From: Catellatospora sp. KI3
Lineage (GTDB): Bacteria > Actinomycetota > Actinomycetes > Mycobacteriales > Micromonosporaceae
Length of the DNA stretch: 64,000 nt
Assembly: GCF_029948125.1 (NCBI RefSeq)
Contig: NZ_JASAMB010000023.1
Location: forward strand, 1 to 64,000
Direction of reading: 5' to 3'
Shown: positions 18,649 to 46,408 of the stretch, in pieces
Layout: each line of letters opens with the position of its first letter
How positions within the stretch are numbered: position 1 is the stretch's first letter
Notes under the pieces: model-generated
Seen by the model: the letters and a program-made list of their open reading frames with translations, nothing else
The model's database searches: none
Told to the model about the DNA's origin: nothing
Position numbers and translations under genes: made by a program

Positions 18649-18712
18649 CGGCGGTTTCGGGGAAACTGCGGCAATCGGGGCCTTGATTCCTGCACTCTCC
18701 CGGAAACTGCAC
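18649..18712. repeat. Palindromic repeat family A, copy 1
   Basis: This intergenic element has the family A arrangement: outer arms reading GGTTTCGGGGAAACTGC and its near-complement CTCCCGGAAACTGCAC, inner arms GCAATC and GATTCC, and a short GGGGCC centre. Arms are less conserved than in the other copies. It lies 15 bp after the kinase stop and 75 bp before the carboxyltransferase gene, the one copy between tandem rather than convergent genes. Confidence 0.8.
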
Positions 18713-18787
18713 TCTGCGCGCCTCCGTGTCGGCAGTGTCGGACCGCTCGTTGGCTCTGGTGTCACCAAGCCGGAGAGCAGGTTCACC

Positions 18788-20044
18788 ATGGCGACGCTCG
18801 ACACCGCGCTGGACCCCCGCGCGCCCGCCTTCCTCGACAACCGGAGCACCGCCCAGGCCGCGCTGCGGGTGCTGGAGCAGGCGCACGGACAGGCCCGCGA
18901 CGGCGGCGGGGAGAAAGAGGTCACCCGCCACCACGCGCGCGGCAAGCTGCTGCCGCGTGAACGCATCGAACTGCTGGTGGACAGCGACACCGCCCTGCTG
19001 GAGCTGGCCGCGACGGCGGGCCGGGCCAGCGGCGAGCCCGCGGGCGCGGGGCTGGTGACGGCCGTCGGCGTCATCGACGGCGTCGAGTGCATGCTGGTCG
19101 CCAGCGATCCGACGGTACGCGACGGCGGCCCCGCCCAGACCGGCCGGCGCAAACTGGCCCGCGCCGTCGAACTGGCCGGCCGGCAGTCGCTGCCGCTGGT
19201 GCTGCTGCTGGAGGCGACCCCGGACGCGGGCCGCCCGGCCGCGCCCGACCCCGGCCTGGCCCAGCTGAGCCGCCTGGCCACGCCGGTGCTGTGCGCCGTG
19301 TTCGGGCCGCTGGACGCCTGGCTGGCCCCGCTGCCCGACCTGTCCGACCACGCGATCGTGGTACGCGGCCGGGCCGAGGCGGTGCGGGTCGACCTCGTCG
19401 CCGAGGACGACCGCGACGCGCTGCGGCTGCTGCGGCAGAGCGTGCGGCGGCTGGTGACGTCCCGGCCGGTGGCCGCGCCGGACGAGGGCATGGCGCCGCG
19501 GTACGAGGCCGACGAGCTGCTCGCCGTGGCCAGCGCCGACCCGGGCCGCCCCGCCGACGCGCGCGAGGTGCTGGCGCGGGTGCTCGACGGCTCCGACTTC
19601 GACGAGTTCCGCCCGCAGCAGGGCCTGGGCCTGCTGGCCGGGTTCGGCGCGGTGCACGGGCACCGGGTCGCGGTGCTGGCCGGGACCGACGCCGTGATCG
19701 ACACCGCGTCGGCGGCCAAGGGTGCCGAGCTCGCCCGGCTGGCCGCCGCCGCCCGGATGCCGGTGCTGGTCCTGGCCAACCCGCCCGTGCCGGGGCCGGA
19801 CGACCACTCGGCGCTGCTGCTGCGCGAGCTGGGCCGGGCCGAGCGGATCACCGTGGTGCTCGGCGCGGAGCCGGGCGCGTGGACGGTGGCCGGGCCGGGC
19901 TTCCGGTTCACCTGGCCGGTGGGCGACCTGTCGGCCGACCCGTACGACGGAGTGATCGACCCCCGCGACACCCGGACCGTGCTCGGCATCTGCCTGTCGG
20001 TGGCCGCCCGGTCCGCCCCCGCCGACCGAGAGGTGACCCCATGA
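18788..20044 (+). CDS. Acyl-CoA carboxylase carboxyltransferase-like subunit, divergent
   Basis: ATG 18788 gives 418 residues, about 100 fewer than usual carboxyltransferase beta subunits. The N-terminal signature is retained (HHARGKLLPRERIELLVDSD and GLVTAVGVIDGVEC), as is the C-terminal segment EFRPQQGLGLLAGFGAVHGH and the closing YDGVIDPRDTRTVLG. The two oxyanion-hole regions are not: the DSGGAR segment is replaced by EATPDAGRP, GPCAGGA by GPLDAWLA, and the second GGSYGAG region by an unrelated VLGAEPGAW. So this may be a structural or inactive subunit, or have altered chemistry. It overlaps the biotin-carboxylase gene by 4 bp (ATGA). Confidence 0.8.
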   Translation: MATLDTALDPRAPAFLDNRSTAQAALRVLEQAHGQARDGGGEKEVTRHHARGKLLPRERIELLVDSDTALLELAATAGRASGEPAGAGLVTAVGVIDGVECMLVASDPTVRDGGPAQTGRRKLARAVELAGRQSLPLVLLLEATPDAGRPAAPDPGLAQLSRLATPVLCAVFGPLDAWLAPLPDLSDHAIVVRGRAEAVRVDLVAEDDRDALRLLRQSVRRLVTSRPVAAPDEGMAPRYEADELLAVASADPGRPADAREVLARVLDGSDFDEFRPQQGLGLLAGFGAVHGHRVAVLAGTDAVIDTASAAKGAELARLAAAARMPVLVLANPPVPGPDDHSALLLRELGRAERITVVLGAEPGAWTVAGPGFRFTWPVGDLSADPYDGVIDPRDTRTVLGICLSVAARSAPADREVTP

Positions 20045-22065
20045 TCCGTCGACTGCTGGTGGCCAACCGGGGCGAGGTGGCCCGCCGCATCTTCGCGACC
20101 TGCCGGGCCGTCGGCATCGAGACGGTGGCGGTCCACTCCTCCGCCGACGCCGACGCCCCGTACGTGGCCGAGGCCGACTACGCGGTGCAGCTGCCGGGTT
20201 CGGCGCCGAGCGCCACCTACCTGCGCGGGGACCTGATCATCGCGGCGGCCCGCAAGACCGGCGCCGACGCTGTGCACCCCGGCTACGGCTTCCTGGCCGA
20301 GAACGCGGACTTCGCGGCGATGGTCACCGACGCCGGGCTGACCTGGGTCGGCCCGCCCTCGAAGATCATCTCGGTGATGGCCTCGAAGATCGACGCCAAG
20401 CTGCTGCTGGCCGAGGCCGAGGTGCCGACCCTGCCGAGCTGGACCGACCCGACCGCCGTGGACGAGTTCCCGGTGCTGGTCAAGGCCGCCATCGGCGGCG
20501 GTGGGCGCGGCATGCGCATCGTCCGCGACGCCGACTCGCTCGGCGAGGCGGTCTCCTCCGCCCGCCGCGAGGCGTTCGGCGCCTTCGGCGACTCCACCGT
20601 CTTCTGCGAGCGCTACGTCGAGCAGGCCCGGCACATCGAGGTGCAGATCGCCGCCGACGAGCACGGCAACACCATCACCCTGGGCGAGCGCGAGTGCTCC
20701 ATCCAGCGGCGGCACCAGAAGATCATCGAGGAGGCGCCGTCCCCGGCCGTCTCGCCCGAGCTGCGCGAGAACCTGTGCGCGGCCGCCGTCGCGGTCGCCG
20801 AGGCCATCGGGTACGTCGGCATCGGCACGGTCGAGTTCCTGCTCAGCCCTGACGGCGAGTTCTACTTCCTGGAGATGAACACCCGGCTCCAGGTCGAGCA
20901 CCCGGTCACCGAGCTGGTCACCGGCCTCGACCTGGTCCGCCTCCAGCTGTTCCTGGCCGAGGGCGGCCAGCTGCCGTTCCCGAGCGCCCCGCCGATGCGC
21001 GGGCACGCCATCGAGGTGCGGCTGTGCGCCGAGGACCCGGCCAGCAACTGGCTGCCCGCCACCGGCCAGGTGCACCTGTTCGAGGTGCCCGAGGTGTCGG
21101 GGCGGTTCCGGCCCATGCTCCAGCCCGGCATCCGGGTCGACTCCGGCATCGAGGCCGGCTCCGTCGTCGGCGTGCACTACGACTCGATGCTCGCCAAGAT
21201 CGTCGCCTGGGCGCCGACCCGGTACGAGGCCGCCCGCATGCTCGCCGGAGCCCTGGCCCGGACCCGGATCCACGGCCTGGTGACCAACCGCGACCTGCTG
21301 GTACGCGTGCTGCGCCACCCGGCCTTCCTCACCGGCCAGATCGACACCGGCCTGCTCGACCGCCAGCCCGAGGTGTTCGCGCCGCTGCTGTCCTCGGTCG
21401 AGGCCGTCCGCCTGAGCTGCCTGGCCGCCGCCCTCGCCGCGGCGGCGCAACGCCGCGCCCAGGCCCCCGTCCAGCGCGGCATCCCGTCCGGCTGGCGCAA
21501 CGTCCCCACCGTCGCCCAGACCGTCGTCTACGACGGCCCCGCCGGCCCGGTCGAGGTCGGCTACCGCCTCGACGGCACCGGGGCGCTGGCCCAGTGGTGG
21601 GTACGCGCGGTCGACCCCGAGGAGCTCGACCTGGCCGGGCTGGGACAGGTCGGCGTGCTCGACGACCACCCGCCCGTCGCGGTCGTCTCCGCCACCGTCG
21701 ACGACGTGGTGCTCGACGTGGCCGGGATCCGGCTGGCGCTGCAGGTGCACCGCGTCGGCGCCATGTCGTACGTCGACAGCGCCGAAGGCTCGCTGGCACT
21801 GCGCCAGCTGCCGCGCTTCCCGCTGCCGGTTCAGGAGCTGGAGGAGGGGGCGCTGACCGCCCCGCTGCCCGGCGCGGTCGGCCGGGTGCTGGTCGCGCCG
21901 GGCCAGCGCGTCGGCGCCGGCGACCTGCTGCTGACCCTGGAGGCGATGAAGCTGGAGCACCCGGTGCACGCCCCGGCCGACGGCATCGTCGCCCAGGTCA
22001 CGGTCCGCCCCGGCGCCCTGGTCGCCGCCGGCGCCCTCCTGGCGGTCCTCACCCCCGCCGCGTAA
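20041..22065 (+). CDS. Biotin carboxylase/biotin carboxyl carrier fusion (acyl-CoA carboxylase alpha)
   Basis: The 674-residue protein is a full-length alpha subunit. The biotin-carboxylase domain starts IRRLLVANRGEVARRI and has the ATP-grasp glycine loop AAIGGGGRGMRI, EVQIAADEHGN, ERECSIQRRHQK and MNTRLQVEHPVTE. A BT-like middle domain follows, and the C-terminal carrier domain ends with the biotinylation motif EAMKLEH. It carboxylates its own biotin with bicarbonate and ATP. Its beta partner is the overlapping upstream gene, whose catalytic loops look degenerate, so the holoenzyme's substrate cannot be inferred. Confidence 0.95.
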   Translation: MIRRLLVANRGEVARRIFATCRAVGIETVAVHSSADADAPYVAEADYAVQLPGSAPSATYLRGDLIIAAARKTGADAVHPGYGFLAENADFAAMVTDAGLTWVGPPSKIISVMASKIDAKLLLAEAEVPTLPSWTDPTAVDEFPVLVKAAIGGGGRGMRIVRDADSLGEAVSSARREAFGAFGDSTVFCERYVEQARHIEVQIAADEHGNTITLGERECSIQRRHQKIIEEAPSPAVSPELRENLCAAAVAVAEAIGYVGIGTVEFLLSPDGEFYFLEMNTRLQVEHPVTELVTGLDLVRLQLFLAEGGQLPFPSAPPMRGHAIEVRLCAEDPASNWLPATGQVHLFEVPEVSGRFRPMLQPGIRVDSGIEAGSVVGVHYDSMLAKIVAWAPTRYEAARMLAGALARTRIHGLVTNRDLLVRVLRHPAFLTGQIDTGLLDRQPEVFAPLLSSVEAVRLSCLAAALAAAAQRRAQAPVQRGIPSGWRNVPTVAQTVVYDGPAGPVEVGYRLDGTGALAQWWVRAVDPEELDLAGLGQVGVLDDHPPVAVVSATVDDVVLDVAGIRLALQVHRVGAMSYVDSAEGSLALRQLPRFPLPVQELEEGALTAPLPGAVGRVLVAPGQRVGAGDLLLTLEAMKLEHPVHAPADGIVAQVTVRPGALVAAGALLAVLTPAA

Positions 22066-22094
22066 CGCCACCGGGCGCCCACCCCCGCCCCGAG

Positions 22095-22148
22095 GTAAGG
22101 AAGGGCCCCTTCTTATCGCTTTGCGACGTAGAAGGGGCCCTTCTTAAC
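22095..22148. repeat. Palindromic repeat family B, copy 1
   Basis: A 54-bp palindrome: AAGGAAGGGCCCCTTCTT, a spacer with TCGCTTTGCGA, then GAAGGGGCCCTTCTTAAC. Both halves are themselves palindromic around GGGCCC. It lies 29 bp after the alpha-subunit stop and 35 bp before a family A copy. The second copy is at 46248-46300, again just before a family A copy. Confidence 0.85.
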
Positions 22149-22183
22149 GTCCCCGCCACCCGCCGCCGGGTTAGGGGCCGGTC

Positions 22184-22255
22184 GAGGGTGCAGTTTCGGG
22201 GAAACTGCGCGAATCGCGGCCAAGATTCCAGCACTTTCCCCGAAACTGCACCCTC
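22184..22255. repeat. Palindromic repeat family A, copy 2
   Basis: This is the best-preserved 72-bp copy: GAGGGTGCAGTTTCGGGG on the left mirrors CCCCGAAACTGCACCCTC on the right, with inner arms GAATC and GATTC around CGCGGCCAA. Each outer arm also contains a small palindrome, GCAGTTT/AAACTGC. It lies between the convergent carboxylase and chaplin-like genes. Confidence 0.9.
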
Positions 22256-22323
22256 GCGCTGCGCACTCGGTCGGCGCACTCGGTCGGTGAGGTCGGTCGG
22301 TGGGGTCGGGTGTGGGGACAGGG

Positions 22324-22375
22324 ACGTCCCCCGAGGGGTGGGCCGGATGGAGGTGGCCCGTCCCTCGGGGGACGT
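22324..22375. repeat. Inverted repeat downstream of the chaplin-like gene
   Basis: Arms of 14 bp, ACGTCCCCCGAGGG at 22324-22337 and its exact complement at 22362-22375, enclose 24 nt that include GGGCC and GGCCC. It may terminate the leftward chaplin transcript or bind a protein. The rest of the 22,066-22,562 gap holds the two palindromic repeats listed separately and no convincing gene. Confidence 0.6.
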
Positions 22376-22562: not shown

Positions 22563-23738
22563 CTACTGCCGCGCCGAGGCGCCGCCGGTGCTCCAGGCGG
22601 CCGCGTCGCCGAGGACGCCGACCGCCACGCCGCTCACGTCGACCGGGAGCTGGATCGGCGCGTACACCTGGGTGCCGTTGAGGATCCCGTGGTTGCCCGC
22701 GCTGATCAGGTTCACGTCGTGGTCGTGCCGGGCGTGCCGGCCGTGGTCGTGGCGGTGGTTGTGGTCGGCGCAGGGCTGCGGGCGGGGCCGGGGACGCGGG
22801 GTCGGGTGGTGGCCGTTGCCGCCACCGCCGCCGCCCGGGTTGGTGCCCGTACCGCCGCCGTTGCCGCCGCTGCTGTGGTCGACGTCGTCGCTCTCGGTGT
22901 CGAAGCGGTCGACGGTGCCGACCGCGTCCAGGGCGTCGAGGTCGATGGCGTCCGCCCCGGTCGCCGCGGTGCGCTGCTGGCCGCCGGTCAGGCCGCCCAG
23001 CAGCGGGCCGACCACGGGCAGGCCGTTGCCGAGGCCGCCGCTGGTGAGGCCGCCGACCACCGGCAGGTTGCCCAGCGAGCCCACCAGCGGCAGGCCGCCG
23101 CCGGTCAGCTCGCCGACGAGCGGGAGGCCGCCGTTGGTGAGGCCGCCGACCAGGGGCAGGTTGCCGACCAGGGGCAGCCCTTCGGTACGGGCCGACTCGC
23201 GGCCGCCGTACCCGCCGTGGCCGTTGTGTCCGTCGTGGCCGTGGCTGCCGCAGCCGCAGTTGTGCCCGTGCCCGTGGTCCGGCCGGGGCCGGGGGAGCGG
23301 CATCGGGCGGTGGCCCGGCGTCGGGCGGTGGCCGGGCTGCTCGGCGGAGGCGCCGCCGTCGCAGAACGCCAGTGCGGACCCGAGCGCCCCGGCGGCCACG
23401 CCGCAGACGTTGATCGGGGCCTGGATCGGGGCGAAGACCTGGGTGCCGTTGAGGATGCCGTGGTTGCCGGCGCTGATCAGGTGCGCGTCGTAGACGCCCT
23501 CCAGCTCGGCGGCGCTGCCGCCCTCGCAGCCGGCGAGCGCGTCACCGGCGACGCCGACGGCCAGGCCGCACAGGTTGATCGGCGCCTGGATCGGGGCGAA
23601 GACCTGGGTGCCGTTCAGGATGCCGTGGTTGCCGGCACTGATGACACTGGCCTCGGCGTACGCCGCGGTGCCGGTGGCCATGACCGCGCCGGCGGTGAGC
23701 GCACCGGCCTTCAGGGAACGTCGAACCCACGTGTTCAT
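22563..23738 (-). CDS. Three-domain chaplin-like secreted protein
   Basis: The 391-residue protein has a signal peptide (residues 1-28, ending AYA). Two chaplin-like domains follow at about 29-76 and 84-131, each with ISAGNHGILNGTQVFAPIQA, a Cys pair (NLCG/AGCEGG; NVCG/AFCDGG) and valine/glycine-rich strands. The centre is His/Gly/Pro-rich, followed by GLPLVG-type repeats and a Gly-rich stretch. A third chaplin-like domain ends the protein (about 341-391) and lacks both cysteines (VDVSG, AWSTG). Chaplins are amyloid-forming surface hydrophobins of filamentous actinomycetes. There is no LPXTG sorting signal. The His-rich linker could bind metals. Start ATG 23738; AGAGG lies upstream. Confidence 0.88.
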   Translation of the reverse strand: MNTWVRRSLKAGALTAGAVMATGTAAYAEASVISAGNHGILNGTQVFAPIQAPINLCGLAVGVAGDALAGCEGGSAAELEGVYDAHLISAGNHGILNGTQVFAPIQAPINVCGVAAGALGSALAFCDGGASAEQPGHRPTPGHRPMPLPRPRPDHGHGHNCGCGSHGHDGHNGHGGYGGRESARTEGLPLVGNLPLVGGLTNGGLPLVGELTGGGLPLVGSLGNLPVVGGLTSGGLGNGLPVVGPLLGGLTGGQQRTAATGADAIDLDALDAVGTVDRFDTESDDVDHSSGGNGGGTGTNPGGGGGGNGHHPTPRPRPRPQPCADHNHRHDHGRHARHDHDVNLISAGNHGILNGTQVYAPIQLPVDVSGVAVGVLGDAAAWSTGGASARQ

Positions 23739-28162: not shown

Positions 28163-29341
28163 ATGTCGGTCGTCGACGTGGTCCTGCTAGCCCTGCTGCT
28201 GCTCTTCGGTATGAGCGGCTACCGGCAGGGCTTCGTCGTGGGCGTGCTCTCCTTCGCCGGCTTCTTCGGCGGCGCCCTGCTCGGCCTGCAGCTGGGCCCG
28301 CTCGCCGCCGGACTCGTCTCCGACGGGGCGCTGAAGCTGATCGTGTCCCTGATCGCCGTGTTCGGCCTGGCCGTGCTCGGCCAGTCGCTGGCGGGCTGGT
28401 GGGGCGGCAAGGTGCGCCGGGCGATCACCAACCCGGCCGGGCAGACCGTCGACGACCTCGGCGGCGCCGTCGTGTCGGTCATCGCCGTGGCGATGGTCGC
28501 CTGGCTGGTCGCGGTGCCGCTCAGCGACGCGGGCCAGCCGTGGCTGGCCAAGGCGGTGCGCAACAGCATGGTCCTCGGCGTCATCGACAAGGTGATGCCG
28601 GGCGAGGCGAAGAACCTGACCGAGGCGCTGCGCGAGACCGTCGACACCAACGGCTTCCCCGAGGTCTTCGGCGACCTGGTGCCCACCCGGGTCAAGGAGG
28701 TGCCCGCACCCGACCCGAAGCTGGCCGGTTCGCAGATCGTGCTGAACGCCAAGAAGTCCGTGGTCAAGGTGCTGGGCAGCGCCCCGAGCTGCAGCCGCCG
28801 GATCGAGGGCTCCGGGTTCGTGTTCGCCAACGAGCACGTGATGACCAACGCGCACGTGGTCGCGGGCACGAGGACCATCCGGGTCGAGGTCAACGGGGCC
28901 CGGCTCAACGGCAAGGTCGTCGTGTACGACCCCGAGCGCGACCTCGCCGTCATCCACGTGCCGGACCTGTCCGCGCCGGTGATGCGGTTCGCCAACTCGC
29001 CCGCCCGCACCGGCTCGGACGCGATCGTGCTGGGCTACCCGCTCGACGGGCCGTACAACGCGCAGTCGGCGCGCATCCGCGACGTCGGCGACATCACCGG
29101 GCCGGACATCTACGAGGACGGCACGGTGACCCGCGAGGTCTACACCATCCGGGGCCTGGTCCGCAGCGGCAACTCCGGCGGACCGCTGGTCTCGGCTGAC
29201 GGGCAGGTGCTGGGCGTGATCTTCGCGGCCGCCGCCGACGACCCGAACGTCGGCTACGCGGTCACCGCCGACGAGGCCGGCACCGTCGCCCTGATGGGCC
29301 GCACCCGCACCACCGCCGTCGGCACCGGCAAGTGCGCCTGA
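28163..29341 (+). CDS. MarP-type membrane serine protease
   Basis: The 392-residue protein has a CvpA-like N-terminal region with four predicted membrane helices (about residues 3-125) and a chymotrypsin-fold protease domain outside the membrane. The catalytic triad is visible: NAHVV, DLAVI and SGNSGGP. Cysteines in APSCSRR and the C-terminal GTGKCA could form the regulatory disulfide known in MarP. M. tuberculosis MarP (Rv3671c) protects against acid and oxidative stress by activating a peptidoglycan hydrolase. Its position after the NUDIX gene is the same. It ends facing mycP, with a family A palindrome between them. Confidence 0.93.
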   Translation: MSVVDVVLLALLLLFGMSGYRQGFVVGVLSFAGFFGGALLGLQLGPLAAGLVSDGALKLIVSLIAVFGLAVLGQSLAGWWGGKVRRAITNPAGQTVDDLGGAVVSVIAVAMVAWLVAVPLSDAGQPWLAKAVRNSMVLGVIDKVMPGEAKNLTEALRETVDTNGFPEVFGDLVPTRVKEVPAPDPKLAGSQIVLNAKKSVVKVLGSAPSCSRRIEGSGFVFANEHVMTNAHVVAGTRTIRVEVNGARLNGKVVVYDPERDLAVIHVPDLSAPVMRFANSPARTGSDAIVLGYPLDGPYNAQSARIRDVGDITGPDIYEDGTVTREVYTIRGLVRSGNSGGPLVSADGQVLGVIFAAAADDPNVGYAVTADEAGTVALMGRTRTTAVGTGKCA

Positions 29342-29360: not shown

Positions 29361-29432
29361 CGTGGGTGCAGTTTCGGGGAAAGTGCTGGAATCATGGGCC
29401 GCTTTCGTGCAGTTTCCCTGAAACTGCACGCT
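29361..29432. repeat. Palindromic repeat family A, copy 3
   Basis: The left arm GGTGCAGTTTCGGGGAAAG and the right arm TTTCCCTGAAACTGCAC flank GGAATCATGGGCC. The right inner arm is degenerate (GCTTTCG in place of GATTCC). It lies between the convergent marP and mycP genes and begins 20 bp after the marP stop. Confidence 0.85.
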
Positions 29433-29464: not shown

Positions 29465-30736
29465 TCAGTCGCGGTGGCGGCCGAGGCGGCGGAGGAGGGT
29501 GAGTGCGCCGCCGACCAGGAGGACGACGCCGGTCGCGGCCACGGCCAGGTCCCGGCGGCCCGGGGCGGGCACCGGCCGGGCGGGGGCCAGCGGCCCGGGC
29601 TCCGGTGTGGGCGACGGCTCCGGGCTGACGCCGGGGGCGGCGCCGAACCCGGCCCGGCCGGGCGGGGGCACCGAGTCCAGCCGGTTGCTCTCCACCGGGG
29701 CGACGTCGGCGGTCAGCGCGGCGACCGGGTCGACCAGGCCGAATCCGTACTGGTCGTCGCGGCCAGGGGCGCCGAGGTCCTGCGCGGTGGCGGTCAGGCG
29801 CTCCACCACGTCGGCCGCGGACATGTGCGGGAAGCGGGAGCGCACCAGGGCGGCCGTCGCCGACACCAGCGGCGCGGCGAAGCTGGTGCCCTGCACCCGC
29901 CAGTAGCCGCCCGGTCTGGCGCCGACCAGGTCGGTCCCGGGGGCGGCGAGCACCGCCTGCTCGCCGGTGAGCGAACCCTGCCACAGGCTGTGCTGCACGC
30001 CGGGGCTCACCGCGGTCACGGCGAGCACGCCCGGCTCGCGGGCCGGATACCAGACGTCGGAGGGCCCGTCCGGGCTGACGTTGCCGACGCAGGCCACCAC
30101 GACCACGTCGCGCGCGAACGCGTAGTCGATCGCCTCGGCCAGCGCGTCGCTGGCGACGCCGCCGCCCAGGGACAGGTTGATCACCCGGGCGCCGTGGTCG
30201 ACGGCCCAGCGGACGCCCTCGGCGACCACCCGGGCGTCGTCGTAGCGGTTCTGCGCGTCGAGCACCCGTACCGGCAGGATCTTGGCGGCGGGGGCCAGGC
30301 CGACCACGCCGCGGTTGTCGTCGTCGCGGCCCGCGATCAGCGCCGCCACGGTGGTGCCGTGGCCGACCCGGTCGTCGCTGCCGTCACCGCCCTTGCCGAC
30401 CAGGTCCAGCCCGGCCAGCACCTGCCCGGTCAGGTCCGGGTGGTGCGCCGACACGCCGGAGTCGACCACCGCGACGGTGACGCCCTCGCCCTTGGCCAGC
30501 TTCCAGGCCCCGGCGGCGTCCAGGGCGCGCAGCTGCCACTGGTCGTCGCGGACGGAGTCGCGGGAGGCGCGCAGCGCCCCGGTGCGGTCGACCGAGAGCG
30601 GGTCGGGGCTGGCCGGTGCCGCCGCGGTCAGCGCCAGCCCGGCCACCACCAGCGTGAACACTCCGGACACACGAAGCAGCGCCGTCGCTGGGTTACGCGG
30701 TACGGCGCTGCGGTCGAGGAGGGCGCGTCTGGGCAC
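29465..30736 (-). CDS. mycP: Mycosin, type VII secretion subtilisin-like protease
   Basis: The 423-residue protein has an N-terminal signal segment (residues 20-44), a subtilase domain with catalytic Asp92 (VVDSGV), His126 (GHGTTVAA) and Ser285 (GTSFAAP) with oxyanion Asn219 (VGN), a Pro-rich linker and a C-terminal membrane helix followed by RRLGRHRD. This is the mycosin layout. Mycosins stabilise the ESX membrane complex and process secreted substrates. The gene lies 45 bp downstream of eccD on the same strand, so they form an operon. The start GTG has only a weak ribosome-binding site. Confidence 0.93.
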   Translation of the reverse strand: MPRRALLDRSAVPRNPATALLRVSGVFTLVVAGLALTAAAPASPDPLSVDRTGALRASRDSVRDDQWQLRALDAAGAWKLAKGEGVTVAVVDSGVSAHHPDLTGQVLAGLDLVGKGGDGSDDRVGHGTTVAALIAGRDDDNRGVVGLAPAAKILPVRVLDAQNRYDDARVVAEGVRWAVDHGARVINLSLGGGVASDALAEAIDYAFARDVVVVACVGNVSPDGPSDVWYPAREPGVLAVTAVSPGVQHSLWQGSLTGEQAVLAAPGTDLVGARPGGYWRVQGTSFAAPLVSATAALVRSRFPHMSAADVVERLTATAQDLGAPGRDDQYGFGLVDPVAALTADVAPVESNRLDSVPPPGRAGFGAAPGVSPEPSPTPEPGPLAPARPVPAPGRRDLAVAATGVVLLVGGALTLLRRLGRHRD

Positions 30737-37057: not shown

Positions 37058-38923
37058 TTGGGGAGGCAAGGTTCACATTACGGTGCCGACCCTGCGGGCG
37101 GCGCCGGTTCGCCGGGCGGCGCGGGCGCGCCAGGCGAATGGGTGTGGAACGGCCGCGAGTACGTGTGGCAGCCCTCCCCAGGTTATCCACAACCCCAGGA
37201 CCAGGGGATGTACGGCTATCCACCGTCTTATCCACAGGCGGCGGGCCCCGGACCGGGTGGTTATCCACAGGATGTGCACAATCCGTGGCCCGGCCATACA
37301 CAGCCTGATGCTTATCCACAGGGCTACGACCGGCGGGGTGGCTACAGCTACGACCAGGTGACCCAGGACACGCACCGCCTGGGCGGCAATCCGGGCGCGC
37401 CCGGCGGCGGTCCCGCCCCGGCCGAGCGTCCGGCCGCGCCGCACAACCGCCGGCTGAAGAAGAAAAAGAAGAAGAGCCGCCGCGGCCTGCTCGCCACCTC
37501 GCTGGTGCTGGTGTCGGCGCTCGGCCTCGGCCTGGTCGGCGTCGGCCTGGCCAAGCCCAGCCTGGTCTCCGACCTGTTCGCCGCCCCGGGCTGGCAGTCG
37601 CCGTCGCCGACCGCGCCCGCCGAGCCCGCCCCCGCGGCGGTGCTCGCCGCGGCCGCCGCCGACGCGCCCATGCCGACCGCCGCCGGGCTCACCACGGTGC
37701 TCGGCCCGCTGGTCACCGGCACCGCGCTGGGCAGCCACGTCAGCGTCTCGGTGGTCGACCTGCACACCGGCCAGGTGCTGTACGAACTCGACCCGACCGA
37801 GATGATCACTCCGGCGTCCAACACCAAGCTGGTGACCGCGGCGTCGGTGCTGGCCACCCGGGGTCCGACGTACCGCATCACCACCCGCGTGGTGGCCGGG
37901 CCCAACCCCGGTGAGGTCGTCCTGATCGGTGCGGGCGACGCCACGCTCGGCGTCAACAGCAAGAAGTTCTACGAGGGCGCGGCCCAGCTGGACACCCTCG
38001 CCGCGCAGGTCAAGAAGGCGATGGGCACCACCCCGATCACCAAGGTGATCACGGACGGGTCGCTGTTCCCGGGCTCCGAGACCGGCCCCGGCTGGTCGTC
38101 GGACGCGCCGCAGGAGGGCAACGTCTCGAAGATCACCGCCCTGATGATCAACGGCGCGCGCACCGACATCAAGGACCGCGAGATGCCGTTCGTACGGCAC
38201 ACCAACCCCGAGCGCGCCGCCGGTGAGGCGTTCGCCAAGCTGCTCGGCCTGCCCGCGAGTGCCGTGGCCAAGGGCGTCGCCCCGCCCGCGCCGGCCACCG
38301 ACCCGGCCGCCCAGCCCAGCGCCGCCGCGTCCGCCGCACCCGTGGCGATCGTGCCCGGCGCGCAGCTCGGCGCGGTGCAGTCGGCGCCGCTGCTGCGCCA
38401 GATCGAGCAGATGCTCACCGAGAGCGACAACACCCTGGCCGAGATGCTGGCCCACCAGGTGGCCCTGGCCAAGGGCAAGCCCGGCTCGTTCGTCGGGGCG
38501 TCAGCCGCGATCGAGGAGGTCGTCACCGAACTCGGCCTGGACCCCGCGCAGATCGACCTGTCCGACGGCTCCGGCATGTCCGGCCGCAACAAGATCTCCC
38601 CGAAGCAGCTGACCGCGCTGCTGGTGAAGGCGGCCGGCGGGGACCACGCGCAGCTGGCCGACTTCTTCAACGGCCTGCCCGTGGCGGGCTGGTCCGGCAC
38701 CATGCTGCCCCGGTTCGCCAAGGTCAAGACCGCCTACGGCCTGGTACGCGCCAAGAGCGGCACCCTCGACGGGGTGAACTCGCTGTCCGGCGTCCTGCAG
38801 ACCGCCGACGGCCGCATGCTCGCCTTCGCCATCCTCGCCGACAACGTCCCCGGCGGCCGCTACCCCGCCCAGGACGCCCTCGACAAGATCGCCGCCGCCC
38901 TGGCCGCCTGCGGCTGCCGCTGA
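37058..38923 (+). CDS. dacB: D-alanyl-D-alanine carboxypeptidase/endopeptidase (PBP4 family)
   Basis: The TTG at 37058 is preceded by AAGGAGGG with ideal spacing, so this rare start is well supported. The 621-residue protein has a cytoplasmic Pro/Tyr/Gly/Gln-rich N-terminus (about 1-125), a KKKKKK-type basic stretch, a membrane helix (about 148-168) and an extracellular S13 peptidase domain. Active-site motifs are SNTK (in PASNTKLVTAA), SDN (in LTESDNTLAE) and KSG (in AKSGTLDGVN). It trims and hydrolyses peptidoglycan cross-links. The N-terminal YPQ motifs are written with TAT-CCA-CA codons that create four DnaA boxes. Position between ppa and the tilS region fits Rv3627c. Confidence 0.95.
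   Translation: MGRQGSHYGADPAGGAGSPGGAGAPGEWVWNGREYVWQPSPGYPQPQDQGMYGYPPSYPQAAGPGPGGYPQDVHNPWPGHTQPDAYPQGYDRRGGYSYDQVTQDTHRLGGNPGAPGGGPAPAERPAAPHNRRLKKKKKKSRRGLLATSLVLVSALGLGLVGVGLAKPSLVSDLFAAPGWQSPSPTAPAEPAPAAVLAAAAADAPMPTAAGLTTVLGPLVTGTALGSHVSVSVVDLHTGQVLYELDPTEMITPASNTKLVTAASVLATRGPTYRITTRVVAGPNPGEVVLIGAGDATLGVNSKKFYEGAAQLDTLAAQVKKAMGTTPITKVITDGSLFPGSETGPGWSSDAPQEGNVSKITALMINGARTDIKDREMPFVRHTNPERAAGEAFAKLLGLPASAVAKGVAPPAPATDPAAQPSAAASAAPVAIVPGAQLGAVQSAPLLRQIEQMLTESDNTLAEMLAHQVALAKGKPGSFVGASAAIEEVVTELGLDPAQIDLSDGSGMSGRNKISPKQLTALLVKAAGGDHAQLADFFNGLPVAGWSGTMLPRFAKVKTAYGLVRAKSGTLDGVNSLSGVLQTADGRMLAFAILADNVPGGRYPAQDALDKIAAALAACGCR
37183..37320 (+). other. Cluster of four perfect DnaA boxes inside dacB
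   Basis: TTATCCACA occurs at 37183-37191, 37228-37236, 37261-37269 and 37312-37320, all on the plus strand. Two weaker relatives, CTATCCACC and CCATACACA, lie between them. The boxes coincide with Tyr-Pro-Gln codons. Tyr residues outside these motifs in the same stretch use TAC. Confidence 0.75.
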
Positions 38924-38944: not shown

Positions 38945-39012
38945 GGGTGCGGTTTCGGGGAAAGTGCAGGAATCCGGGTCATGATTCCAACACTTTCCCC
39001 GAAACCGCACCC
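38945..39012. repeat. Palindromic repeat family A, copy 4
   Basis: GGGTGCGGTTTCGGGG on the left mirrors CCCCGAAACCGCACCC on the right; the inner arms GGAATC and GATTCC are intact around CGGGTCAT. The G-for-A change in the left arm is matched by a compensating change on the right, which keeps the stem paired. It lies between convergent dacB and tilS and overlaps the last codons of tilS. Confidence 0.92.
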
Positions 39013-40163
39013 GACTCCGTTGGGTGATCGCGGCCGGACGCGGCCGCCGCGGCGGGGTGGGCGGGTGTCAGGATGTCGGCGGTTCGGGTGACGGTGATGC
39101 CGCCGGGCAGGTAGGCGGGTCCCTGCCCCCGCCAGGCCGTGACCAGTGCGTCCAGGGTTTCGACGTGCCGGTGTGCGAGCGCCGTGCGCGGCGCGCCCAG
39201 TCCGGCGGCCCATTCGTGCAGTGCCCGGGTCCGCAGTGCGGCGGGCAGCTCGCGTAGCGCGGACACGGCCAGACCCGATCCGGTGCGGCACCTGCCGAGC
39301 GCCGCGGCGGCCAGTTCGTCCAGGTAGGCGGTGTCCTGGGCGAGCAGCCCCGCCGTCCGGGCCAGGTTGGCCACGACTCCTTCGCCGAGGGTGGCGACCA
39401 GCGCGGGCAGGGCCTCGGCCCGGACCCGGGAGCGGGCGTAGGCGGGGTCGGTGTTGTGCGGATCGTCCCACGGGGTCAGGCCCTGGGCGGCGCAGGCGGC
39501 GCGGCAGTCGGCGCGGGGCAGGTCGAGGAACGGGCGGCTGAACCGTACCCCCGCCTGGTCCCGGTGGACCGGCATGCCGGACAGGCCCCGCGGCCCGGAC
39601 CCGCGCGCCAGCGCCAGCAGCACCGTCTCGGCCTGGTCGTCGCGGGTATGCCCGAGCAGCACCGCGGCTGCCGAGTGCCGGCGTGCCGCGTCGGCCAGCG
39701 CCGCGTAGCGGGCGTCGCGTGCCGCGGCCTCAGGCCCGCCCGAAGTGCCGACGGTGACCGCCACGACCTCGACCGGGTCCAGGCCGCGCTCGCGCGCCCA
39801 GGCCGCGACCTGCTCGGCGCGCTGCCCCGATCCGGCCTGCAGTCCGTGGTCCACGGTCACCAGTCCGACCTGCCAGCCGAGGCGCGCCCCCACGAAGGCG
39901 GTAGCCGCCGCCAGCGCGAGCGAATCCGCACCACCCGAGCACGCGACCAGCACGAGTCCGGACGGGCGGGGCCGCGTCGGGGTGTCCTGCGGCGCGGACG
40001 ATCCGGGCACCGACGCCACCGCTGTCGTCGACGGGTGATCGCCGCGGGCACCGTGGCGTGGCTGTGCGCCGCGAGTCGGGACGTCGCGAGGTGCGGGCAG
40101 CCGTCGCAGCAGGTCGGTGACGGCGGTTCGGGTGCGGGCGACGGCGGGGGGCAGCGCGGCCAT
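38979..40163 (-). CDS. tilS: tRNA(Ile)-lysidine synthase
   Basis: ATG 40163 gives 394 residues. The PP-loop SGGADS at residues 76-81, VDHGLQAGSGQRAEQV, GHTRDDQAETVLL and RFSRPFLDLPRADCR are classic TilS motifs. The enzyme converts the wobble C34 of tRNA-Ile(CAU) to lysidine using ATP and is normally essential. Residues 27-68 are a low-complexity insertion. The last ten residues and the stop are encoded by the palindromic repeat at 38945-39012, so the C-terminus was probably rewritten by that element. tilS and the next gene are inverted relative to dacB compared with the usual dacB-DUF2342-tilS-hpt order. Confidence 0.93.
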   Translation of the reverse strand: MAALPPAVARTRTAVTDLLRRLPAPRDVPTRGAQPRHGARGDHPSTTAVASVPGSSAPQDTPTRPRPSGLVLVACSGGADSLALAAATAFVGARLGWQVGLVTVDHGLQAGSGQRAEQVAAWARERGLDPVEVVAVTVGTSGGPEAAARDARYAALADAARRHSAAAVLLGHTRDDQAETVLLALARGSGPRGLSGMPVHRDQAGVRFSRPFLDLPRADCRAACAAQGLTPWDDPHNTDPAYARSRVRAEALPALVATLGEGVVANLARTAGLLAQDTAYLDELAAAALGRCRTGSGLAVSALRELPAALRTRALHEWAAGLGAPRTALAHRHVETLDALVTAWRGQGPAYLPGGITVTRTADILTPAHPAAAAASGRDHPTESGAVSGKVLES

Positions 40164-40174
40164 GGGCAGGGCGG

Positions 40175-41221: not shown

Positions 41222-41289
41222 GCCTAGAACCTACCCGCGTCACTCCACCTGATGCCCGTGTCGCGCGATCGCGTGGTTTGATCGACGGC

Positions 41290-42882
41290 ATGCGACGTCA
41301 GCCGGTGTACGCGCCGAACGGGGTGGTCGCCACCAGCCAGCCGCTGGCCGCGCAGGCCGGGCTGGCGGTGCTGCGCGAGGGCGGCTCGGCCGTCGACGCG
41401 GCGGTGGCCGCGGCGGTGACCCTGACCGTGGTGCAGCCGGGCTCCAACGACATCGGCTCGGACCTGTTCGCGCTGGTCTGGGACGGGCAGCGGCTGCACG
41501 GCCTGAACGCCTCCGGCCGAGCCCCGGCCGCGCTGACCCGTGAGCTGCTGGCCGAGCGGGGCGAGCGGCCGACCGGCGCGCTGGGTGCGGCGCAGGCGCG
41601 GGCCGCCGTGGCGCCGCCGTCGCGCGGCTGGCTGCCGGTGACGGTGCCCGGGGCTCCGGCGGGCTGGCGGGACCTGCACGACCGGTTCGGCCGGGTGCCG
41701 TTCGAGCGGCTGTTCGCCGACGCGGTCGGCTACGCCGAGCACGGCTGGACGGTGTCGCCGACGGTCGCGGCGGGCTGGGACCGCGCGGTGCGCCTGCACC
41801 GCGGGCTCACCCGGGCCGAGTGCCGGGCCTGGGCGGACGTGTTCGCGCCCGACGGGCGGGCGCCGCGGCCGGGGGAGCGGTTCCGCAACCCGGGGGCGGC
41901 GCGGGCGCTGCGGCTGATCGGCGGCAGCCACGCCGACGCGTTCTACCACGGCGAGATCGCGCACGCCCTGGCCGCGCACGCGGCGGCCACCGGCGGGCTG
42001 CTGACCGCCGACGACCTGGCCCGGCACGAGAGCACCTGGGTCGAGCCGATGCGCGCCGACTATCGCGGCTTCAGCGTGTACGAGCTGCCGCCCAACGGCC
42101 AGGGTGTCGCCGCCCTGCAGGCGTTCGCGCTGCTGGACGGGTTGCCCGGGCACGGGGTGCACGAGCAGATCGAGGCGATGAAGCTCGGCTTCGCCGACGC
42201 CCACGCGTACGTCGCCGACCCCGACGCCGGGCCGGTGCCCGACCTGCTGGCGCCCGGCTACGTCGCGGCGCGGCGGGCGCTGATCGGGCCCCGGGCCGGT
42301 GACCCGCCGCCCGGCGACCCGATGCGCGGCGGCACGGTCTACCTGGCCGCGGCCGACTCCGACGGCATGATGGTGAGCCTGATCCAGTCGACGTACATGG
42401 GCTTCGGCTCGTTCGTCGTGCTGCCCGAGTACGGCTTCACGCTGCAGAACCGGGGCGCCGGGTTCAGCCTCGACCCGGCGCACCCGAACGTCGCCGCACC
42501 CGGCAAGCGCCCCTTCCACACGATCATCCCGGGCTTCCTCTGCCGCGACGGCGCGGCGGTCGGCCCGTTCGGGGTGATGGGCGGGCACATGCAGCCGCAG
42601 GGCCACCTGCAGCTGGTCCTGTCCACGGTGGACGGGGGCCTGGATCCGCAGGCCGCGCTGACCCGCCCCCGCTGGTACTGGCACACCGCCCGCCAGCTGG
42701 AGGTGGAGCCCGAGTTCGACCCGGATCTGCTCCGCGACCTGCGCGAACGCGGTCACGAGGTGACCGTCGCCGAGGACCGGTCCACCTTCGGCATGGGCCA
42801 GGCGATCTGGTGCCTGCCCGACGGCGCGGGTTACGTGGCCGGGTCGGAGCCGCGCGGCGACGGGCAGGCCGCCGCGTACTGA
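41290..42882 (+). CDS. Gamma-glutamyltransferase family protein (YwrD type)
   Basis: ATG 41290 gives 530 residues of an Ntn-hydrolase of the gamma-glutamyltranspeptidase family. GGSAVDAAVAAAVTLTVVQPG and the ELPPNGQG segment belong to the large part; autocleavage is expected before the Thr of GGTVYLAAADSDGMMVS (about residue 348), which becomes the nucleophile. There is no signal peptide, so it is probably cytoplasmic like YwrD; these proteins often lack strong transpeptidase activity. The substrate is unknown. It interrupts the conserved tilS/hpt neighbourhood. Confidence 0.9.
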   Translation: MRRQPVYAPNGVVATSQPLAAQAGLAVLREGGSAVDAAVAAAVTLTVVQPGSNDIGSDLFALVWDGQRLHGLNASGRAPAALTRELLAERGERPTGALGAAQARAAVAPPSRGWLPVTVPGAPAGWRDLHDRFGRVPFERLFADAVGYAEHGWTVSPTVAAGWDRAVRLHRGLTRAECRAWADVFAPDGRAPRPGERFRNPGAARALRLIGGSHADAFYHGEIAHALAAHAAATGGLLTADDLARHESTWVEPMRADYRGFSVYELPPNGQGVAALQAFALLDGLPGHGVHEQIEAMKLGFADAHAYVADPDAGPVPDLLAPGYVAARRALIGPRAGDPPPGDPMRGGTVYLAAADSDGMMVSLIQSTYMGFGSFVVLPEYGFTLQNRGAGFSLDPAHPNVAAPGKRPFHTIIPGFLCRDGAAVGPFGVMGGHMQPQGHLQLVLSTVDGGLDPQAALTRPRWYWHTARQLEVEPEFDPDLLRDLRERGHEVTVAEDRSTFGMGQAIWCLPDGAGYVAGSEPRGDGQAAAY

Positions 42883-42932
42883 GACCGGGGTCCGGCCAAG
42901 TCCCCGCCGGTCGCGGGGTCGTTTGACGCGAT

Positions 42933-45900
42933 GTGAGAATAGCGACGATTGTCCGGATAGCTTGCGGGCTTGCGCTGGTCGCGGGCTCAGCTGCGGTTCC
43001 GGCGGGTACGAGCGCGGCGGCGCCGCCCGGCCCGCACAAGCTGCAACCCCAGTCCCGGGTGGCGGTCGGCCGCGCGCCCTCGAGCCGGCTGGCCCGGACC
43101 GACCGCGGCCTGCTCGGCAGCACCGGCCATCAGCGGATCCCGGTCCTGGTCAAACTCGACTACGACGCGGTGGCCAGCTACCCCGGCGGCCTGCCGGGCC
43201 TGGCCGCGACCAGCCCCGCGGTCACCGGCCGGCGGCTGCGCGCGAGCAAGGCCGAACGCGACTACGAGGACTACCTCATCGGCCGCGAACGCCGCTTCGC
43301 CCAGCACCTCGCCGCCCAGCTGCCCTCGGCCCAGCTCGGCCGCTCCCTGCGTACGGTGTACGGCGGCCTGTCCCTCACCCTCCCGGCCGACCAGGTGCGC
43401 AAGCTCGCCGCCCTGCCGGACGTGGTCGCGGTGCAGCGCGACGAGCTGCGCGAACCGCTGACCGACTCGTCCGGCTCGTTCATCGGCGCCGACGCGCTCG
43501 CCCCGGCCGGGCCGACCGGCGCGGCCGACCTGTCCCGCGCCGGGCAGGGCGTCATCGTCGGCGTGCTGGACACCGGCGCCTGGCCCGAGCACCCGTCCTT
43601 CGCCGACCAGGGCGTCCTCGGCGCGCCCCCGGCCAAGGCCGACGGCACCCGGCGTACCTGCGACTTCGGCGACAACCCGCTGACGCCGGGCAAGGACGTG
43701 TTCCGCTGCAACCGCAAGCTGATCGGCGGCGCCCCGTTCCTGGACGGCTACCTGTCGAGCTTCCCGAAGGAGAAGTACCGCAGCGCGCGCGACTCCGACG
43801 GGCACGGCACCCACACCGCCTCGACCGCGGCGGGCAACGCGCTGGCCTCGGCGAAGATCTTCGGGGTGGAGCGCGGCCCGATCCACGGCATCGCCCCCGG
43901 CGCCTGGGTCAGCGTCTACAAGGTCTGCGGCGAGCAGGGCTGCATGTCGTCGGACTCGGCCGAGGCGGTGGCCCAGGCGGTGCGCGACGGCGTCGACGTC
44001 ATCAACTTCTCGGTCTCCGGCGGCACCGACCCGTTCACCGACCCGGTGGAGATGGCCTTCCTCGACGCGTACGCCGCGGGCGTGTTCACGGCCGCGTCGG
44101 CGGGCAACTCCGGCCCGACCGCGGGCACGGTCAACCACCTGTCTCCGTGGGTGACCACGGTGGCCGCGTCGACCCAGCGCCGGGAGTTCGCCGCCGACCT
44201 GGTCCTGCGGGCCGGTGACGCGACGCAGACGCTGCGCGGCGCCTCGCTGACCGGCGCGGCCGGGCCTGCCCCGATCGTGCGCGCGGACGCCGTCGCGGGC
44301 TACGCCGGTGGCAAGGCCTGCACGAAGGCGGCCAAGCCGAAGACGTTCACCGGCAAGATCGTGGTGTGCGAGCGCGGCGGCAACCCGCGCGTGGAGAAGG
44401 GCTGGAACGTCAAGGCCGGCGGCGCGGTCGGCATGGTGCTCTACAACCCGACCACCCAGGACACCGAGACCGACAACCACTGGCTGCCGACGGTGCACCT
44501 GCCCGACGCCGCGCTGCTGGAGTTCCTCGACGCCCATGCCGACGCGACCGCGACGATCGGCGCGGGCGCCCCCGTCGCCGGCACCGGCGACGTGATGGCG
44601 GCGTTCTCCTCACGCGGACCCGGCGGCCTGATGCTCAAGCCGGACGTGACCGCCCCCGGCGTGCAGATCCTGGCCGGCAACACGCCCACGCCCGCCGACA
44701 ACACCGGCGGCCCGGCCGGGCAGTACTTCCAGGCCATCGCGGGCACGTCCATGTCCTCGCCGCACGTGGCCGGGGCGGCGGCGCTGCTGGCCGCCCGGCA
44801 CCCGGACTGGACCCCGGGCGAGCTCAAGTCGGCCCTGATGACCACCGCCGTCACCGACGTGGTCACCGAGAACGGGGTGGACCGGGCCGGTCCGCTGGAC
44901 CTGGGTGCGGGCCGGATCGCGGTCGACCGCGCCGACGCCGCCGGGGTGACCATCGCCGAGACCGCCGACCGCATGTACGCCCTGGCCGACGACGAGGTCC
45001 GGGCGGTCCAGCTCAACCTGCCCTCGATCAACGCGCCGATCATGCCGGGCCGCCTGTCCATGGTCCGCACCCTGCGCAACATGACCGACCAGGCGCTGAC
45101 CTACCAGGTGACGGCGACCTCGCCGGACAGCAGCACCATCAGCGTCCCGCCGACGGTCACCGTCCCGGCTCGGGGGACCGCGCCGCTGCCGGTGACCATC
45201 TACTCCCGCGCGGTCTCGGCCGGGTTCCTGTTCGGCGAGGTCCGGCTCACGCCGACGACCGGGCAGGCGCTGCACCTGCCGGTCGCGTTCCGGCCCACCC
45301 AGGGCCAGGTCACCCTGGTCAGCGCCTGCACCGCCAAGAAGGTGCAGCTGGCCCGCACCGTCGACTGCACCGTCACCGCCCGCAACACCGGCTACGACCA
45401 GGCTCCGGTGTCGCTGGCGACCCGCCTCGACAAGGGCCTGGCCCTGGCCGACGTGGACGGCGAGGTGCGGCTCGGCCGGGAGGGCGAGGTGCGGCACAGC
45501 TCCACCCTGCCCGGCATCGAGCCGGGCCTGCCCGCCCTGTCCGACCGGTCCGACCGGCTCTGGCGGCCGCTGACCGTCACGCCGGACGCGATCGGCGACG
45601 AGGAGCTGATCAACTACGAGGTGCCCGAGTTCGTGTACGCCGGACAGGCCTACACCAGCATCGGCGTGGTCTCCGACGGCTACCTCGTCGTCGGCGGCGG
45701 CACCGGCCAGGACATCCGCTTCGAGCCGCCGAAGTCGAACGAGGCCGCCCGCCCCAACAACGTGCTCGCGCCGTACTGGGCGGACCTGGACGGGTCGGCG
45801 GCCGACGGCGTGCGCGTGGCCGAGGTGACCCGCGACGGCAAGAAGTGGATCGTCGTCGAGTGGCGGGTGAACCGCTTCGGCACCGAGGACGGCCAGCGCT

Positions 45901-46214
45901 TCCAGGCGTGGCTCGCGACCGGCGACCGCGAGGAGATCCGCTTCGCGTACGACGAGCAGGCACTGCCGAAGGGCGCGGCCGTCTTCGCCGTGGGGGCCGA
46001 GAACGCGCTGGGCAAGGGCGTGCTGTCGACCGAGGCGCCGGCCGCCGACCGGGGCGTGGCGTCCGCGGGCGGGCACCCGGGCGGGGTGGCGTCGTACACG
46101 GTCACGCTGCGGGGGGTCACGCCTGCTGACGGGACGCTGGTGACGGCTATGACCAGTCCGGATGTGCCGGGGACGACGGTGGTGCGGAACCGGCTGCCGG
46201 TGGTGCTGAAGTGA
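42933..46214 (+). CDS. Secreted subtilase with PA domain (S8 family)
   Basis: The GTG at 42933 starts a 1,093-residue preproprotein: signal peptide (1 to about 30), an inhibitor I9-like prodomain (about 65-165) and a subtilase domain with Asp (VLDTGAW, about 211), His (DGHGTHTAST, about 290) and Ser (GTSMSSPHVAG, about 605). A PA domain (VRADAVAGYAGG to the KAGGAVGMVL segment) is inserted before the Ser box, the cucumisin-like layout, and Fn3-like and beta-sandwich domains follow. It is probably an extracellular degradative protease. The C-terminus shows no anchor. It ends in a stack of three hairpins. Confidence 0.93.
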   Translation: MRIATIVRIACGLALVAGSAAVPAGTSAAAPPGPHKLQPQSRVAVGRAPSSRLARTDRGLLGSTGHQRIPVLVKLDYDAVASYPGGLPGLAATSPAVTGRRLRASKAERDYEDYLIGRERRFAQHLAAQLPSAQLGRSLRTVYGGLSLTLPADQVRKLAALPDVVAVQRDELREPLTDSSGSFIGADALAPAGPTGAADLSRAGQGVIVGVLDTGAWPEHPSFADQGVLGAPPAKADGTRRTCDFGDNPLTPGKDVFRCNRKLIGGAPFLDGYLSSFPKEKYRSARDSDGHGTHTASTAAGNALASAKIFGVERGPIHGIAPGAWVSVYKVCGEQGCMSSDSAEAVAQAVRDGVDVINFSVSGGTDPFTDPVEMAFLDAYAAGVFTAASAGNSGPTAGTVNHLSPWVTTVAASTQRREFAADLVLRAGDATQTLRGASLTGAAGPAPIVRADAVAGYAGGKACTKAAKPKTFTGKIVVCERGGNPRVEKGWNVKAGGAVGMVLYNPTTQDTETDNHWLPTVHLPDAALLEFLDAHADATATIGAGAPVAGTGDVMAAFSSRGPGGLMLKPDVTAPGVQILAGNTPTPADNTGGPAGQYFQAIAGTSMSSPHVAGAAALLAARHPDWTPGELKSALMTTAVTDVVTENGVDRAGPLDLGAGRIAVDRADAAGVTIAETADRMYALADDEVRAVQLNLPSINAPIMPGRLSMVRTLRNMTDQALTYQVTATSPDSSTISVPPTVTVPARGTAPLPVTIYSRAVSAGFLFGEVRLTPTTGQALHLPVAFRPTQGQVTLVSACTAKKVQLARTVDCTVTARNTGYDQAPVSLATRLDKGLALADVDGEVRLGREGEVRHSSTLPGIEPGLPALSDRSDRLWRPLTVTPDAIGDEELINYEVPEFVYAGQAYTSIGVVSDGYLVVGGGTGQDIRFEPPKSNEAARPNNVLAPYWADLDGSAADGVRVAEVTRDGKKWIVVEWRVNRFGTEDGQRFQAWLATGDREEIRFAYDEQALPKGAAVFAVGAENALGKGVLSTEAPAADRGVASAGGHPGGVASYTVTLRGVTPADGTLVTAMTSPDVPGTTVVRNRLPVVLK

Positions 46215-46219
46215 GTGCT

Positions 46220-46242
46220 CGTCAGCCGCTGCGCGGCTGACG
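46220..46242 (+). terminator. Terminator hairpin of the subtilase gene
   Basis: CGTCAGCCGC, loop TGC, GCGGCTGACG forms a perfect 10-bp stem 5 bp after the subtilase stop. Confidence 0.8.
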
Positions 46243-46247
46243 TCGCA

Positions 46248-46300
46248 GTAAGGAAGGGCCCCTTCTTCTCGCTTTGCGAGGTGGAAGGGGCCCTTCTTCA
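46248..46300. repeat. Palindromic repeat family B, copy 2
   Basis: It differs from the copy at 22095-22148 at only a few positions, mostly in the spacer (CTCGCTTTGCGAGGTG against ATCGCTTTGCGACGTA). AAGGAAGGGCCCCTTCTT and GAAGGGGCCCTTCTT are retained. A family A copy follows after 43 bp, as at the other site. Confidence 0.85.
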
Positions 46301-46343
46301 CTCTCCACCCGCCCGTGGGGCGCGCGCCCGGGGCGGTGGTCCC

Positions 46344-46408
46344 GGCAGTTTCGGGGAAACTGCTGGAAAGGGGGCCAAGATTCCTGCACTTTCCCCGAAA
46401 CTGCACCC
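46344..46408. repeat. Palindromic repeat family A, copy 5
   Basis: GGCAGTTTCGGGGAAACTGC and CACTTTCCCCGAAACTGC are the outer arms; the inner arms are GGAAAG and GATTCC around GGGGCCAA. It lies between the convergent subtilase and GlxA-type regulator genes. Confidence 0.9.

Follow-up and report, generated by a model that had tools for sequence, protein, structure and literature searches.

The 64,000-nt stretch of DNA from Catellatospora sp. KI3 analysed here (the window) contains five copies of a 60-nt repeat that occurs throughout the genome, mostly at the 3′ ends of genes, and that is built from two inverted arms held apart by a spacer of fixed length. It resembles the REPINs, hairpin-forming pairs of repetitive extragenic palindromic (REP) sequences, and its sequence and location suggest that it probably serves as a bidirectional terminator lacking a U-tract, or as a barrier that sets transcript 3′ ends. 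The 3′-end location is not new, because REPs of other bacteria show the same bias; what is added is an actinobacterial family, its geometry and the absence of a match to the REP-associated tyrosine transposase (RAYT).

Architecture and position relative to genes

The element was counted with a profile built from 31 seeds in this genome (G000). At a threshold of at least 30 bits the profile finds 81 copies in a sample of 1.264 Mb, comprising C1 1-800,000 (53 copies), C2 1-280,000 (15), C3 1-120,000 (8) and the window (5), which corresponds to ~530 copies genome-wide if the sample is extrapolated. A loose pattern run over the whole 8.2-Mb genome gives 192 forward and 178 reverse matches, where one element can score on both strands, and the reversed pattern used as a control gives none. 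The five copies are therefore members of a much larger genome-wide family, as had been suspected.

Read from its 5′ end, the element forms a 19-nt arm (GCAGTTTCGGGGAAASTGC), a 22-nt spacer and then the reverse complement of the arm. Each arm is nearly palindromic on its own, although position 15, which is G or C, frequently breaks the symmetry, and the arm letters are close to invariant across copies. The sequence of the spacer is variable, while its length is 22 nt in 79/81 copies in this genome and 34/35 copies in C. tritici. Exact arm cores (the 12-mer GTTTC[CG]GGGAAA) that lie no more than 150 bp apart are all inverted and at a single distance (39/39 pairs here and 19/19 in C. tritici), the dyads being spaced by a constant 41 bp from centre to centre. 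All 108 exact cores in the 1.264-Mb sample (~15% of the genome) are located inside elements of this one design, with no lone exact core found outside a 60-nt element. These are the features of a REP dimer, i.e. two inverted and individually palindromic units with fixed spacing and a variable spacer, so that the REP-like character proposed in the original prediction is supported at the level of architecture. The two halves of the element differ beyond random pairing of halves, with a log-likelihood of -2636 compared with -2687 (sd 12; the best of 20 null sets gave -2659). The 13 copies that were folded form long hairpins of high stability (-28 to -50 kcal/mol). Neither a GTAG nor a CGTC tag is present in the consensus arms or the neighbouring letters, as read from the consensus rather than by a copy-by-copy search. 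A separate feature of the flanks is the tetranucleotide GATC, found within 15 nt of the arm in 33/226 flanks compared with 7.6% of background 15-mers, and 2-4 nt outward of it in 30/226; some of these sites are TGATCA, which gives a stop codon on either strand.

Almost all of the copies are intergenic (79/81; the remaining two are inside predicted genes), with 32 in convergent, 37 in codirectional and 10 in divergent gaps. The convergent copies (32/79) compare with 17% of intergenic base pairs in such gaps (p=1.1e-6, or p=8e-6 when counted by gaps of at least 60 nt), and the divergent copies (10/79) are fewer than expected from 29% of intergenic base pairs (p=0.001). In the codirectional gaps the upstream stop codon is closer than the downstream start for 34 of the 37 copies, so the anticipated bias towards convergent gaps is supported and extends to gene 3′ ends. 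A similar distribution is seen in the Catellatospora genome G008, where 20 fetched stretches scanned with a strict pattern yielded 15 copies; seven are convergent, seven codirectional and nearer the upstream stop, and one lies in a predicted gene. The element thus places a stable hairpin just past the stop codon, as in an intrinsic terminator.

Conservation, turnover and spread

Comparison with C. tritici was based upon 27 orthologous pairs of copies, taken from 28 gaps in which both species have the element. The arms differ at 90/1026 positions (8.8%) and the spacers at 127/572 (22%), and the length of the element is kept in 26/27 pairs, compared with 2/51 for the flanking segments. The arm letters and total length are thus held while the spacer drifts. 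The spacers of the G008 copies are mutually largely unrelated, yet all 15 matched copies are 60 nt in length.

It had been proposed that the fold is kept rather than the bare sequence, from a compensatory pair of changes in copy 4 that is indeed real (Table 1). Among 56 copies, base pairs altered on both sides number 9 compared with 5.3 in shuffles, a value reached by 1/500, but there is no excess in the proportion of paired cells (85.6 compared with 86.2%), in the covariation score (0.059 and 0.063) or in cells altered on both sides (16 and 19.5). Arm permutations give 976 compared with 970 (p=0.08), with p=0.04 for the outer flanks, and pairing at several inner positions falls below chance, in line with two distinct types of half. 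A larger set of 113 copies (79 from this genome and 34 from C. tritici, three with another spacer length having been dropped) contains 10 complementary double changes, where a decay-stratified permutation yields 6.05 (p=0.008). The unstratified probability, below 1/5000, was not used, because decay is correlated between the arms and this confounds it. The position-2 pair stands out, with eight double changes where 1.96 are expected, four of them complementary, and of 14 copies that carry a single change per arm, 4 show exact compensation. Compensation is seen between the arms; pairs within an arm have no clear excess in this set. Compensatory changes between arms surpass chance modestly, and the proposal holds in part. 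Strong covariation of the stem is not supported, and conservation is highest in the arm letters themselves. Compensation between arms could also arise from templated correction of one arm by the other.

In 464 orthologous gaps between C1 and the window of this genome and C. tritici, the element is shared in 28, present only here in 22 and only in C. tritici in 2, a skew that may partly be a detection effect as the profile was built from this genome. Other hairpins occupy some of the gaps that lack the element; these are plain hairpins, members of the related GTTGCCGGGCAAC family or GATCATGAACTTATGG elements. An inverted repeat scoring above all 20 shuffles is found in 11 of 18 tested C. tritici gaps that lack the element present here, and, where both species lack it, in 39/45 convergent and 8/45 divergent gaps (for gaps of 40-700 nt, with single bases shuffled and the first 45 taken per class).

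Five repeat families were distinguished, of which fam1-fam4 are mainly at gene ends and the fifth is mixed. Paired GAAGGGNCCCTTC dyads are 31 bp apart in 30/30 close pairs, and the elements are nearly always 43-44 nt among the matches listed. This family has 164 forward matches in this genome and none in five other Catellatospora sampled, and is patchy in the Micromonosporaceae (10/101 genomes, 7/44 genera). The GTTGCSSGGCAAC family has a centre spacing of 42 bp in 14/17 copies and 41 bp in 3/17; its pattern has no match in 100 other sampled genomes, five of them Catellatospora, and the family is present in C. tritici with 7/7 pairs at 42 bp. A further gene-end family, ACGCTGGCCTATC, has a fixed length and no dyadic arms. 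Inverted repeats were also noted in C1 of this genome. The long-armed hairpin family GACGCTGGCCTATCYAGAGGACG (e.g. at 2128, 78392 and 275742) is almost exclusively at gene ends; of its 24 clusters 18 are convergent and 5 lie close to the upstream stop in codirectional gaps, with one other. A long inverted repeat resembling a miniature inverted-repeat transposable element (MITE), with ends GATCATGAACTTATGG, occurs at C1:10558, 116578, 290651 and elsewhere; in the gap C1:290542-290944 its loop contains the 60-nt element.

A covariance model of the element (R1) finds matches in all 11 Catellatospora genomes, with 58 to at least 86 in each (at least 86 in eight of them). Across the 61 genomes searched any match is found in 20, and in 10/49 genera; those in G051, G049, G047, G036, G013 and G023 are weak and were not counted as members, the best G051 match being by eye an unrelated long hairpin. 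The loose pattern matches 21 of 200 genomes of the family, and outside Catellatospora only G019, with 5 forward and 5 reverse, has more than a single match on each strand. A local anomaly was seen in G008, where exact-core copies are nearly absent from ~5.0-6.9 Mb of C1, a single-contig chromosome (1 compared with 13.9 expected, p=1.4e-5, for a copy list reaching 7.80 Mb and a stretch picked after seeing the positions).

Two-dyad units with a similar spacing occur in other genera. Four copies in 16 fetched stretches of G019, from another genus, all have a spacing of 42 bp and different arms; two are in convergent gaps, one is in a divergent gap and one, in a codirectional gap, is close to the upstream stop. 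The single copy in G034 also measures 42 bp. Paired TTTCSSSGAAA dyads are found in six genomes of three genera among 249 genomes of the order, a survey in which Catellatospora is represented solely by G000. Outside Catellatospora 9/12 of these elements have the 41-bp spacing (G202 1/1, G191 1/1, G173 3/3, G046 4/6 and G170 0/1). The exceptions in G046 are spaced by 40 and 39 bp, and the single pair in G170 by 34 bp with its arms direct. G019, genus g4 and G034 belong to the same family as Catellatospora, and G046 to a different one. Some of the G046 copies have CGTC inward of the core.

Function and alternative explanations

Four properties point to a bidirectional element that ends transcripts, i.e. 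its position, its symmetry of orientation, the stability of the hairpin and the occurrence of other hairpins at the same gaps. On transcription from either side the arms would pair into a long and very stable hairpin, and this would stop or end-cap transcripts in both directions, which would be useful above all between convergent genes. RNA would be the acting form and transcripts would end at the element, while the conservation would reflect selection rather than conversion between copies, with some factor reading the arm letters. The fixed spacing and the arm letters are more than a generic terminator would require, and both agree with REPINs as described.

The BIME/REP sequences of enterobacteria are also located at 3′ ends, with reported roles in termination and mRNA protection, and differ from the element in sequence, spacing and the associated transposase. 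A role without a U-tract has a parallel in Streptomyces, where U-poor or U-less stable hairpins are described at 3′ ends (PMC8269248, PMC12207403). Those ends likewise have a stable stem near the gene 3′ end followed by few or no U; unlike the present element they are not presented, in the available parts of these papers, as one family of sequences that has a constant length and a long spacer. Among the papers listed by a literature search that included the letters of the arm core, mostly outside subscription journals, nothing on these elements was seen; those listed for the core letters concern other subjects to judge by their titles (e.g. STAT1, hepatitis B polymerase).

A number of observations weigh against this role. 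At least four T within 10 nt are found in just 5/226 arm flanks, so that of the proposed bidirectional terminator the position fits while the U-tract is missing. The middle of the element pairs weakly and is long by the standard of intrinsic terminators, the optimal loop of which in E. coli is given as 4-8 (PMC8269248, in its accessible part), and a terminator loop needs no exact spacer length. The complementarity of the spacer halves is below chance in the copies of this genome and no higher than chance in G008 (67/165 compared with 61, p=0.21). Ten of the 79 intergenic copies do lie in divergent gaps, and the gene calls come from a purpose-built codon-usage caller with no outside annotation. 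The 3′-end bias is established for Catellatospora only, the contexts in G019, G046 and genus g4 being mixed or uncertain.

The element could alternatively be a selfish REPIN- or MITE-like mobile sequence with no role for the host, its paired hairpins being copied by a putative enzyme and its insertion tolerated at gene ends; we regard this as possible but doubtful. The architecture fits. The REPINs as described in the available text of PMC3116915 share with it inverted palindromic units at fixed spacing, an extragenic location, hundreds of copies, conserved ends, a spacer in which length counts for more than sequence, and reported compensatory changes. They differ in that here there is no Y1/RAYT match in the genome, no GTAG tag, another spacing and an actinobacterial host. 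Moreover, singlets are common among REPINs (same source), whereas the exact single arm core is absent from our 1.264-Mb sample, which weighs against this alternative. In other bacteria, too, REPs are mainly in convergent and codirectional gaps close to gene 3′ ends, according to the part of PMC3733652 available, which also speaks for a selfish element. The CGTC-tagged REP dimers of that study are close too, being dimers of short palindromes with no dedicated transposase and a 3′-end location, but the Catellatospora consensus arms lack both CGTC and GTAG; the accessible text reports CGTC repeats from five phyla, Actinobacteria not among them, and that name does not occur in the text at all.

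The difference in presence between close species would fit movement, with the detection skew given above. However, orthologous copies keep their arms and length, unlike dead insertions, unless converted, and inspection by eye of the gaps where only this genome has the element revealed no clean empty site. That examination has low power, both 40-nt flanks being recovered in 3/21 own-only gaps (with other sequence between them) and in just 5/28 shared gaps. Y1_Tnp (PF01797), the domain expected of a RAYT, has no match in this genome, and none in G005 or G009, the other genomes with high copy number. Matches are present in 8/18 genomes, six of them Catellatospora, with 17 matches in all, and none of the 12 loci fetched has a TTTCSSSGAAA core within ~1.5 kb. 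A RAYT flanked by the repeats, as is found with REPINs, is thus not seen, and the suggested RAYT association is not supported. The family adds GC-rich actinomycetes to the range of REP/REPIN-like repeats in a variant lacking the usual transposase, and provides a natural experiment on the spread of such repeats in the absence of a RAYT.

A broader interpretation, which we put forward tentatively and consider rather improbable, is that the constant 41-42-bp two-dyad unit is an old RAYT-free design of the Actinomycetota, with arm letters that differ by genus, and interchangeable with other gene-end hairpin families. Its spacing would be set by a putative host protein recognising the two dyads simultaneously, either in duplex DNA or as paired hairpins, ending transcription both ways and perhaps copying the unit.

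It is less probable still that the element acts in DNA as a double operator, in which each 13-bp dyad would bind a dimeric protein and the two dyads, approximately four helical turns apart, would be bridged to form a roadblock to RNA polymerase or a site organising the chromosome. The absence of a U-tract agrees with this, as does the constancy of spacing (41 bp for exact-core pairs, 41-42 bp for GTTGCSSGGCAAC, 42 bp in the four G019 copies, 31 bp for GAAGGGNCCCTTC, and 41 bp in 9/12 elements of genus g4 and G046). Yet no single exact cores were found in the 1.264 Mb, the inversion is strict despite a nearly symmetric dyad, and compensation occurs between arms and not within an arm. The gene-end family ACGCTGGCCTATC has a fixed length without dyadic arms, which weakens helical phasing as the sole explanation.

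Convergent gaps in general contain inverted repeats, but a likeness arising by convergence among many independent, ordinary terminators is very improbable given 108/108 exact cores in elements of one design and nearly invariant arm letters. The strict geometry and the turnover of hairpin families provide a natural experiment on termination between convergent genes in bacteria with U-poor terminators.

Copies and other features in the window

The outer-arm motif has 13 matches in the window with up to three mismatches, whereas 100 dinucleotide shuffles average 0.03, and the five copies are where the original prediction had placed them, now delimited to 60-nt cores (Table 1). Their outer arms are as described there. 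The inner arms GGAATC/GATTCC had been overstated, as the full strict pair is present in copy 4 alone; copies 1, 2 and 5 have only the right GATTCC and copy 3 only the left GGAATC. The GGCC-rich centre is absent from copy 4. Four of the five copies are convergent and copy 1 is codirectional, according to the codon-based gene caller. The Pfam domains of the bordering genes are ordinary. Copy 4 encloses the predicted stop codon (38979) of the minus-strand TilS-like gene. An Rfam scan of the window at the gathering score gave a tRNA as the sole match, with no family matching the repeat.

Table 1. Positions of the 60-nt element and of second-family hairpins in the window, with gene context (strand as + or -)
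Feature	Position	Structure	Gene context
Copy 1	18651..18710	arms 18651-18669 and 18692-18710, 22-nt spacer	codirectional gap: upstream protein-kinase-domain gene 17695-18633 +; downstream carboxyl-transferase-domain gene 18788-20044 +
Copy 2	22190..22249		convergent gap: biotin carboxylase gene 20041-22065 +; ChpA-C domain gene 22563-23738 -
Copy 3	29368..29427		convergent gap: Colicin_V + Trypsin_2 domain gene 28163-29341 +; subtilase gene 29465-30661 -
Copy 4	38949..39008	compensatory pair 38951 G / 39006 C (A to G and T to C against the consensus)	S13 peptidase gene 37358-38923 +; TilS-like gene 38979-39953 -
Copy 5	46345..46404		convergent gap: subtilase gene 43059-46214 +; DJ-1/PfpI + AraC-type helix-turn-helix (HTH) domain gene 46432-47382 -
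Second-family hairpin	22095..22148	two GAAGGGNCCCTTC dyads 31 bp apart	shares gap of copy 2
Second-family hairpin	46248..46301	two GAAGGGNCCCTTC dyads 31 bp apart	shares gap of copy 5

In the G009 orthologue of copy 1 the arms are direct rather than inverted (GGGG in both), the sole such case seen in Catellatospora. Elsewhere in the window, positions 1752-1784 and 1952-1984 form a perfect 33-nt inverted repeat with 167 nt separating its arms.

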